DNA of 64,000 bases from Spiribacter halobius (GTDB lineage Bacteria; Pseudomonadota; Gammaproteobacteria; Nitrococcales; Nitrococcaceae), in NCBI RefSeq assembly GCF_020883455.1, contig NZ_CP086615.1:2728001-2792000 (forward strand). Direction: 5' to 3'. The notes under the pieces are model-generated. The model did no database searches. It had not been told where the DNA came from and was given only the letters and a program-made list of their open reading frames with translations. Positions 46,565-63,139 of this stretch are shown here, one piece after another (the stretch's first letter is position 1; each line of letters begins with the position of its first letter). A program made the translations under genes and the position numbers.

Positions 46565-47121
46565 TTCAAACCGCCTCCTTCAACGCCACCGGAAGGGCGT
46601 CCGCAACCGTCGCCAGCCCCCGCCGATCCCAGTCATCGACGATGCGGATCATCGCCTCCACCGCCGGCTTGTAGTCCCGCCACCGATCCGCGCCCACGCC
46701 TATCGCCTTCGTGTACTGGATCGGCTTCGCCCCCCTCCCTCGTCGGCGATCGGTACTGCTGCCGCAGATCCGAGATCACCGCCGCCGCGGCCAGCACCAC
46801 CCGGTCCGGCCGCATGCGGATCGTCCGCGTCTCCGCGTACTGGCGGTAGAGCTCCGAGGTCACGCGGTGCAGCGCCCGGCTCGAGGCGTAGCCATCGGCC
46901 CCGTACGTCAGCAGCAGCCAGCTGCGCACGTGTGGCAGGCAGCGGTCCACCGCCGCCAGCACCCTGCCGCAGTCCAGCCCGTGCCAGATCGCGGCCGTAT
47001 TGTCCGGCTTGCCCGAGCGGGCCGCCGCCAGCGCCTCATCCACCCAGCCCGGCACCTGCATGCCGTTCGCCGTCGCCACCGCAATCGCCACCCGTGCACT
47101 GGTCGTCCTGATCATCGTCAC
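46565..47121 (-). pseudogene. Putative late regulator gene, frameshifted
   Basis: The ATG frame from 47,121 reads MTMIRTTSARVAIAVATANG to SDLRQQYRSPTREG, then drifts into low-complexity sequence and stops at 46,633. At 46,730-46,735 a run of six C (G on the coding strand) causes the shift. With five, the frame continues AKPIQYTKAIGVGADRWRDYKPAVEAMIRIVDDWDRRG and ends at 46,565. About 185 residues restored. Its place just before a terminator and the late genes suggests a Q-type role, but no family is recognised. Confidence 0.65.
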
Positions 47122-47150
47122 TCCCGCTCGCTGCTCTGCTGATTCGCCCC

Positions 47151-47430
47151 GTCACCACCTGGTAGTGACACCCCGCCGAGGTAGTGACACCCCGGAGCCC
47201 TTGCTGGGCGCGGGTTGTCACTACCGTCACTACCGTCACCACCTTTTTCTCGCGTATAGAGAAAACCGCTTTCTTGTGGCGAGTGCCCCGTTCGTTCACT
47301 CACGGAATTGATCCCCCTTACGCGCGACCCCCTTGAGGTAGTGACGGTAGTGACAACCCGCACGGGCACTGGCCTGGAGGCACTTATCCAGGTGGTGACA
47401 AGGTAGTGACGAGGTGGTGACGGTGGTGAC
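47151..47430. other. Putative replication origin with 12 iterons
   Basis: Twelve copies of the 9-mer GGTRGTGAC occur in 280 bases. Plus orientation: 47,161, 47,180, 47,337, 47,346, 47,391, 47,402, 47,413 and 47,422. Minus orientation: 47,151, 47,217, 47,226 and 47,235. Several abut head to tail. The two clusters flank an A/T-richer 93-base centre with a TTTTCTC...GAGAAAA dyad (47,245-47,265). No open frame of note crosses it. It lies directly behind the primase-helicase gene. This is the layout of an iteron-type origin. Confidence 0.72.
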
Positions 47431-47432
47431 AC

Positions 47433-49901
47433 CTATCCGCCCTCCTCCGGGCGCACGTAGAGGTACACCCGCCTGCCGTTCCGTCGTCGCTGCTCCCGCT
47501 GCCAGCCGAGACGCCTCAGCACCTCGCCGACGCGCATCTGCTCCGGCCGGCTCTGCTTGCCCGTCTCCACCTTCAGCGCCCAGGCCATCACGTCCGCCAC
47601 CGTCACCTGCCGCACCGGGTGCTTGCGGTCGATCGGCAGCCACTCGAACGGATACCGGTCCTGCTCACACTCCCCGTCCAGCCAGGCACCGATCGGCTCC
47701 TCCCAGGCGTCCGCCGCGTTAGCGCGCCTCCTGCCTCCTCCTCCGCGCTTGCCGGGAAAATCCCACCACGGCTCCCCGCGCTGGTAGCGCACGTTCCGCC
47801 TCCGCCCACAGCTGGTCGCGCAATTGTTCGAGGGAGGGAATACTCGATCCACCCGCAACTCACGGGCAGGAACCGCCTCGCCCCGGTCGGATCCTGCAGG
47901 TAGGCGTGGTCGTTGGTGGTGCCCACAAAGATATTCTGCCCGGGAAAACTGGCGCGCGTAGCGGCCATAGCTCGGTCGGTAGGTGTCTTCCTGGGCGGAG
48001 ACGGCTGCCTTGATGCGGTTACGGTCCGCCTTGTTGAAGGACTGGAGCTCAGGAATCTCGATGATCCAGCGCCCGGAGAGTATCTGGTAGAAGTCCTTGT
48101 CCTGGGGCGATTGCATCATCTCCGCGAACCACTGCGGCCCGCAGAGCGTGCGCACGGCCGTGGACATTCCCCCGGCCCTGCTTGCCTTCCAGGATCACCA
48201 TGAAGTCCACCTTGCAGCCCGGGGACCGCACCCGCGCCACCGCGCTCATCAGCCACGAGCGGCCCACCGCCGCCGTGTACTCGTCGTGCGTGCAGCCGAA
48301 GAAGTCCGAGAGCATGTGGTCGAGCCGCGCCGTCCCGTCCCACTGCAGCCCGTCCAGGTACTCCACCACCGGGTGGTACTTCCGCCGCCGCGCCACCGCC
48401 TCCACCGCCTCCAGGGCCATGCCGGAGCCGATGCTCAGCGCGTAGTGGTACGGGTGCCCCATCCAGGCCGCGATCTCGGTCCCGTCCGCGTCCGCCAGCG
48501 CCTCGCCCGATCCGCTGCCCGCATAAGGCGGCGCCCGCGTCGTCCGGATCTCGTTGGCGAACGCGTCGAGCGCGTACATCCCGTGCCAGGCCTGGTGGTT
48601 CTCCAAAATGGTGATGACGTTGTGCAGCGTGGCCTTCACGCCGCCCTTCTCCGTCCGCACCAGGAGCTCCTCCCACACCGAAGGCGAGCGGGGGGTCAGA
48701 GCACCGCCCTCAACCCCCGCTTCGGCTGGCGCTCCTCGCCGCCCCTGGCCGGACGCTCCGCTGTGGCCGCCGCAAACTGCTCGACCAGCTGCCGCGCCAC
48801 CGCCGGCCGCCCCCTCGGCAATCTGCAGATCGTTCCAGTCGCTCTGCCCCGCCGGCTCCCGGAACTGCGGCACGAGCACCACGCCCCCGGTCTCCGCCGC
48901 CGCGGCCTCCGCCTTCTCCCGCCGGGATTGATCGGCCGACCGCGGGCGTCAACCGCCTCGTGGTCGTCGTCCGCGCAGTAGGCCAGCGTCGCGCCCACCT
49001 CCGCCGCCAGCGGCAGCAGCACCCGGCCCACCGGCGCCAGGTTGCCGGCATCCCAGGCGACGGCCACCGGCCAGCCCTTGGCCTCGTGCACCGTCGCCGC
49101 CGTCGCATACCCCTCGGCGATCGCGAGCGGCATCCCGGCCCGGGGCGTGCCAATCAGATGGAAGGTGCCCTTCTTGCGGGCATGGCGGAGGAACGTCTTC
49201 GCCCCGCCGGGAAGATGAACTGCAGGCCCCACAGCGTGGCCTTGGCGTCGCGCATGGGCACCGCCAGCGTCCCGCGCTTCACGTAGCGGAACGAGACCCC
49301 GTCCCGCTCGCCCGCCTTGCTGTCGAAGAAGGCGCGGATCTCGGCGCGGTCCGTGATGCAGCGGGCCGTGCCCGCCTCCTCGTCCGTCACCAGCAGCAGC
49401 GCGCGCTTCGCGAACCGCAGGCCGTGGCTTTTCACCTTCTTGCCGCCGAGGTACCGGCTCTGCCCCACCTGGTGGAGCTGGTCCCAGCACTCCGCGGCCA
49501 TCTCCGCCACGCGCCGCTGCCACGCCGCCTCGCGCTCCGCCTCATCCGCCTCCTGCGACCCGACGTTCCTGCTGGCGCCTCTTCTGCCGCTCGTCCAGAT
49601 CGCGGCGCTCGGCCTCGGAGCGCTCCCGCCGCCGCGGCTGCCAGCCGCCCGCCTTCGCGTGGTGGATCAGCGTGCCGATGCCCACGCGCCCGTGCGGCTT
49701 CACGGACCGCCACTGCGTGCGGGCATCCCGCTCGCGGTAGTTCTGCGCCTGCGCGCTCCAGCGGTCCCAGGCCTCGAAGGCGCCGTCCCCGAACTCGGAC
49801 TTCAGCGCCATTGCCATGCGCAGCCAGACGTCCCGCGAGTGCGGGTCGACGTGGGCCAGCGCCTCTTCCGCCTCCTCGAGCGTGAGCTCGGGCAGCGTCA
49901 T
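47433..49901 (-). pseudogene. Phage primase-helicase (PriCT/Toprim plus VapE-like ATPase), multiply frameshifted
   Basis: Read in pieces, the gene runs MTLPELTLEEAEEALAHVDP (PriCT-like), KSHGLRFAKRALLLVTDEEAG, a Toprim-like IAEGYATAATVHEAKGWPVAVAWDAGN with YCADDDHE, NDLQIAEG, then the VapE/DUF5906 part TRAPPYAG...WMGHPYHYALSIGSGMAL, Walker A GKQGRG-K-STAVRTL, IPELQSFNKADRNRIKA, IFVGTTNDHAYLQDPTGARRFLP and DAWEEPIGAWL. These pieces fall in all three frames with at least eight shifts. An intact version would be about 820 residues and would start replication at the adjacent iterons. Confidence 0.85.
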
Positions 49902-61381: not shown

Positions 61382-61521
61382 GCGAAGCACACCGCAAGCT
61401 GATCGAGCTGATCGCCCGCCAGGCCGTACGCGAGCATCTGACACGTGAAACCGCGCAACGGCGGGATCGGGAGAGTGGTCAACAGAATCGGGCCTGCACG
61501 AAGCGGGCAGCCAACGGCTAG
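61378..61521 (+). CDS. Small protein before integrase
   Basis: 47 residues from GTG at 61,378 (GTGA overlap): MSEAHRKLIELIARQAVREH to KRAANG. Basic and short; lies directly before the integrase. A directionality factor is possible by position only. Confidence 0.5.
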   Translation: MSEAHRKLIELIARQAVREHLTRETAQRRDRESGQQNRACTKRAANG

Positions 61522-61531
61522 GCTTCACTCC

Positions 61532-63139
<1,608 letters not shown>

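Follow-up and report, generated by a model that had tools for sequence, protein, structure and literature searches.

The array behind vapE and its prophage

The window, that is, the whole stretch of 64,000 nucleotides of the Spiribacter halobius genome analysed here, carries a prophage with vapE in its early operon, and repressor, YdaS/Cro and CII-like genes are found upstream of vapE. To one side of this operon come the genes for terminase, portal, head protease, major capsid and tape measure, the large terminase gene being 7-9 kb from the array described below. On the other side a serine integrase gene adjoins a tRNA-Met gene; the integrase gene (61445-63139, 553 aa) has its end inside the tRNA-Met gene, which is likely to be the prophage attachment site. 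Because genes for TerL, portal, protease, major capsid, tape measure and serine integrase are present, the element is classified as a prophage and not as a satellite of the PICI type. A comparison at the nucleotide level gave no similarity to cultured phages. The following features have been assigned around the 3' end of vapE.

47151..47159, minus strand: iteron unit GGTGGTGAC, outermost and distal to vapE (exact match)
47161..47169, plus strand: iteron unit GGTAGTGAC (exact match)
47180..47188, plus strand: iteron unit GGTAGTGAC (exact match)
47217..47243, minus strand: three head-to-tail units with starts at 47217, 47226 and 47235 (9-bp pitch)
47244..47336, no strand: centre of 93 bp, possible unwinding element
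47244..47265, no strand: TTTTTCTCGCGTATAGAGAAAA, the A/T-richest part of the centre, from the sequence
47337..47354, plus strand: inner pair of units with starts at 47337 and 47346 (9-bp pitch)
47391..47430, plus strand: four head-to-tail units with starts at 47391, 47402, 47413 and 47422
47433..49901, minus strand: vapE primase-helicase gene, with PriCT_2, a primase-like middle part, VapE helicase and a C-terminal winged helix
47436..47705, minus strand: winged-helix domain at the VapE C-terminus, proposed to read the iterons, in one frame (boundaries approximate, from the AlphaFold model of the homologue L154)
47490..47492, minus strand: codon for the Gln at wing position W+4, which co-varies with base 6 of the unit

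The twelve GGTRGTGAC units of the original prediction (47151-47430) were all found to be exact and in place by pattern match within the window, and their order across the array is - + + - - - / + + + + + +. The array lies directly behind a primase-helicase gene, as had been proposed; its last unit ends 2 bp from the stop codon, and the gene, on the minus strand, is of the VapE type (PF05272 and PriCT_2 matches). As for orientation, the right set is indeed head-to-tail on the plus strand, while the left set, described as inverted, is mixed (- + + - - -), and the triple at 47217..47243 reads as +++ on the vapE strand. The inner pair at 47337..47354 and the segment 47210-47234 form a 25-bp perfect inverted repeat with 102 nt between its arms.

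The window as a whole contains 17 matches to GGTRGTGAC where 0.67 is expected by chance and where shuffled sequences gave 3 at most. Pattern searches of the 4.17-Mb genome returned 190 single copies, on average one in roughly 22 kb. In tandem, as GGTRGTGACGGTRGTGAC and GGTRGTGACNNGGTRGTGAC, the word is confined to this array, and a tandem form was absent from all 58 related genomes searched. The expectation that the 9-mer clusters only here has thus been confirmed, and since it is not equally dense elsewhere, its genome-wide occurrence does not speak against a dedicated array.

The centre (47244-47336) was predicted to be richer in A/T. Its GC content is lower, 54% against 66% for the 560-bp region and 40% in the lowest 30 bp, so that this holds to a mild or moderate degree and not in the sense of a strongly A/T-rich element; in two relatives (L156 and L163) the centre is GC-rich. 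CTATA and YGCG elements resembling TTTTTCTCGCGTATAGAGAAAA occupy the same place in related arrays. Two parts of the centre, 47244-47265 and 47319-47327, correspond to elements that recur among related arrays; those of one side resemble CGCGCGTA, and the other side has CTATAYGCG with an A-run. These elements may be melting or priming sites. GC skew showed no clear switch at the array and drifts with the coding strand over the whole prophage.

Arrays behind vapE in other phages and plasmids

The viral contig L074/L154, whose VapE is 56% identical, has an array of identical twelve-unit layout (-++---++++++), in which several unit gaps differ by 1 nt from those of the window. GGTRGTGAC arrays are also present beside the stop of more distant vapE genes (L009, L110, L121 and L075/L084). 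In a Myxococcales-binned contig (L133, 709-3438) a GGTGGTGAC array overlaps the 3' end of a 909-aa vapE frame and, as it lies inside this frame, an origin there would be translated as a C-terminal tail. A viral contig (L048, 7323-7662) has ten GGTRGTGAC units, and no VapE match was found in the stretch examined; another initiator may use this word, or vapE may lie outside the stretch. Tandem GGTGGTGAC found in the viral contigs L015, L041, L055 and L107 has a single orientation and looks like coding repeats, and these candidates were rejected as origins.

Arrays of other words are found 3' of vapE in cultured phages of Marinobacter, Pseudomonas and Acidovorax, with one gene intervening between vapE and the array in the Pseudomonas phages. 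Among 80 further viral contigs, nearly all closest relatives have an array, and the words include GGTTTTGCA, GGTAGGAAC, GGTGTTGCA, GGTTGGGCA, GGTTGGGCC, GGTCGGGAC and GGTTGTC. In Corynebacterium phage CL31 (L325, 3343-3793) nine CGGGACAA units in both orientations lie behind vapE, where just 45 bp separate vapE from the next annotated small ORF, which is possibly no gene. The order of vapE followed by iterons was also found on the plasmids pGO128, pKNA06 and p1318-5. On the natural 4.3-kb Gluconobacter oxydans plasmid pGO128 (L314, 1545-2945) inverted GGTGCTA iterons are right behind vapE, which is the sole annotated replication-type gene, and this plasmid may represent a minimal VapE replicon.

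For a family-wide survey, VapE loci from viral contigs (including the second set of 80), plasmids and genomes were dereplicated at 90% identity, and an array was called when an exact 8-mer occurred at least four times and above its count in 100 shuffles; 919 stretches of the same length, scored at four copies, served as controls. An array directly 3' of vapE was called at 54 of 96 dereplicated loci vs 14 of the 919 control stretches, a procedure that misses some degenerate arrays and some that another gene separates from vapE, and at 52 of the 54 loci the array occupies both strands. In the polymerase-type VapE phages checked (Bacteroides and Croceibacter) the array is mostly absent, the repeats of Corynebacterium phage CL31 being an exception, and therefore the rule is not valid for every VapE protein. 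In the open-access literature we found no earlier report that ordinary phages have such arrays after vapE, while one may exist elsewhere.

Fixed spacing, drifting words and the winged helix

Geometry was compared over 19 arrays that between them use about 11 words. In the inner left pair the gap is 9 in all but two arrays, where it is 8; the gaps of the inner right run or triple are 8-10, and the centre measures 65-102 from start to start. The outer-left gap is 33-35 in 14 arrays and 42-46 in five, two classes separated by about one helical turn. On the outer right the gap is 32-37 in 17 of 18 arrays and 50 in the remaining one. The word is free to drift, while spacing and helical phase are held. 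Fixed spacing and phase with a changing word point to the demand of a nucleoprotein assembly, not of coding or RNA structure. Because words change at constant spacing, recognition between protein and origin becomes directly testable.

When the columns of the VapE C-terminal alignment were compared with base 6 of the word, W+4 ranked top with a z of 8.5, followed by 3.7 for the next column, in a scan that is unweighted and ignores relatedness. Gln at W+4 goes with T at base 6 in seven of seven cases and Arg or Lys with G in 15 of 17 (Fisher p 1e-4, base 6 having been picked after viewing the alignment); the exceptions are L165 and L181. On a maximum-likelihood tree, however, the switch recurs in separate branches, in L075 vs L131, L121 vs L207, L154/L155 vs L156, and L200/L216 vs L178. 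The Myxococcales-binned contig with the word GGTGGTGAC, which was outside the scan set, has the predicted Gln at W+4. In the L154 model this residue is located in the first strand of the wing and not in the recognition helix. We propose, from alignment and predicted structure, that the C-terminal winged helix of VapE is the reader of the iterons.

The origin reading, its alternatives and known systems

What is seen here is the array, its position, its conserved geometry with changing words and the co-variation of the word with a winged-helix residue. We interpret the 280-bp segment, with a probability of roughly 0.88, as a prophage replication origin with VapE-bound iterons of the SaPI/PICI kind. 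The original prediction of a dedicated initiator array serving as phage origin is supported, because many unrelated phages and some plasmids have such an array after vapE, with a conserved geometry and a word that changes with the VapE DNA-binding domain, and because its counterparts in the SaPI/PICI literature are functional origins. By analogy with homologues, a VapE/PriRep-family primase-helicase would bind the twelve GGTRGTGAC units via its C-terminal winged helix, and the two inverted unit sets would assemble two facing initiator oligomers, probably two hexamers, with fixed spacing and helical phase around the 93-bp centre. The AAA+ helicase parts would then melt the centre, the primase part of VapE would prime replication, and bidirectional theta replication would presumably start after induction.

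Several other readings of the repeats have to be considered. If a phage transcription regulator other than VapE used the array as an operator to control genes downstream of vapE, or if the repeats formed a terminator or antiterminator, the position between two co-directional genes, the inverted repeats that could fold and the several HTH regulators encoded nearby would all be in keeping with this. However, a promoter-like or terminator-like site and an Rfam match are lacking in 46900-47700, twelve units over 280 bp in a fixed two-sided geometry far exceed an operator, the same kind of array adjoins vapE on plasmids, and changes in the word go along with the C-terminal domain of VapE; regulation of this sort is therefore quite improbable. 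Iteron-like arrays are known also as centromeres and near packaging sites, and a partition, packaging or recombination site might take the place of an origin. Such a role is very unlikely here, considering that the surrounding genes scanned include no ParB/ParR-type gene, that the large terminase gene is kilobases away, and that the array is linked to vapE in phages and plasmids alike. A protein of the VTTVTT type encoded by the repeats is hardly credible: short ORFs that overlap one another do read the units as VVTVVT, and the L133 array is contained in the 3' end of the vapE frame, but units are on both strands, and since the gaps differ by 1 nt from those of L154 and are non-multiples of 3 across the family, no reading frame is kept. 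The claim that no protein-coding explanation fits is accordingly borne out by the shifting gaps and the units on both strands.

Another reading, that of a former origin which is inactive in this strain through its broken initiator gene, concerns present activity and not the identity of the array, and is compatible with the origin reading. Compared with the L154 protein, the vapE frame has at least six changes, at about 49.6-49.5, 49.2, 48.9, 48.17, 47.95 and 47.74 kb, which may be real damage or sequence error; unless the sequence is at fault, the frameshifted vapE may leave this strain without an active origin. Against a relic stand the twelve intact units in a layout equal to that of L154 and the TerL, portal and tape measure genes, which are single open frames among the long structural genes scanned, so that the breaks in vapE fit recent damage or sequence error. 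We put inactivity at a little below an even chance.

This kind of origin is itself already known, and what deserves attention is the rule of fixed spacing with a drifting word, together with the proposed specificity residue. The analysis gives a large group of temperate phages a likely origin whose place, right after vapE, can be predicted, and the conserved layout lets it be recognised without knowing the word. Fixed geometry set against drifting words that are tied to one residue provides a natural data set for changing specificity between initiator and origin, and the same data bear on compatibility and incompatibility of elements and on the placement of two facing helicases on DNA.

Among known systems, SaPI Rep proteins recognise iterons directly downstream of their own gene via the C-terminal domain (PMC7581432), and rep-ori replicons of PICIs drive plasmid maintenance (PMC6092414). 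The L154 VapE model (pLDDT 92) matches the SaPI PriRep1-dsDNA structure 7pds over its length (E 2e-34), a homologue profile matches it with E 1e-92, and 7pds is the first match for the predicted L154 winged helix alone (pLDDT above 90). The likeness consists in an initiator helicase homologous to PriRep1 in sequence and fold, with a C-terminal DNA-binding domain (predicted here), in an origin immediately 3' of the initiator gene where short iterons flank a centre as two inverted sets, and in element-specific words. The window differs in that its array belongs to a prophage of full size, which has genes for head, tail, packaging and integrase, in its word, and in a centre that is moderately A/T in a GC-rich genome. 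A PICI-like element of E. coli CFT073 (L327, 3997-4284) has GGTAGACA/GGTAGATA (GGTAGAYA) iterons behind a primase gene, with P4 ori1 spacing in mirrored pairs as judged by eye; its pairs are outermost, whereas in the window's array inner pairs face the centre. Origins 3' of helicase genes are also known from pRN1-type archaeal plasmids, where the origin is immediately downstream of the orf904 primase-helicase gene (PMC4234260) and consists of a stem-loop without iterons, and from SCCmec Cch2, a self-loading helicase that uses its C-terminal domain to bind repeats located shortly after its own gene (PMC7581432); Cch2 differs in having three AAGTG repeats only and a D5-type helicase, and its replication in vivo is putative.

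In P4, annotated crr is immediately 3' of alpha, and the 8-bp type 1 repeats GGTGAACA start with GGT. In gaps and relative orientations, crr (pair, 43, opposite, 18, opposite, 14, same) matches the vapE-distal side of the array in the window and in L154, and ori1 (pair, 43, opposite, 22, same, 11, same, 10, same) matches the left-hand part of both the L128 and the L156 array; among shuffled patterns the rate of such matches is about 0.6% for ori1 (p about 0.006) and 1-2% for crr (p about 0.01-0.02). Only geometry is in common. The P4 initiator alpha is another primase-helicase and not VapE, the word differs, ori1 and crr are about 5 kb apart, and with respect to the module all P4 units are turned in the opposite direction. 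The case for a module common to P4, PICIs and prophages is suggestive. It would be made up of a pair, a gap of about 35 or 45 bp and further units at about 20 and 10 bp in set orientations, and in VapE prophages two such modules would face each other around a 60-105-bp centre. That all three share one origin module with signed spacing fixed and the word drifting, and with W+4 as a repeatedly flipped switch at which Gln reads T and Arg or Lys reads G at base 6, is in our estimate evenly balanced. If it is true, origin words of unseen phages should be partly predictable from protein sequence, and the split ori1 and crr of P4 and the compact origins of PICIs and prophages are suggested to be versions of one architecture.
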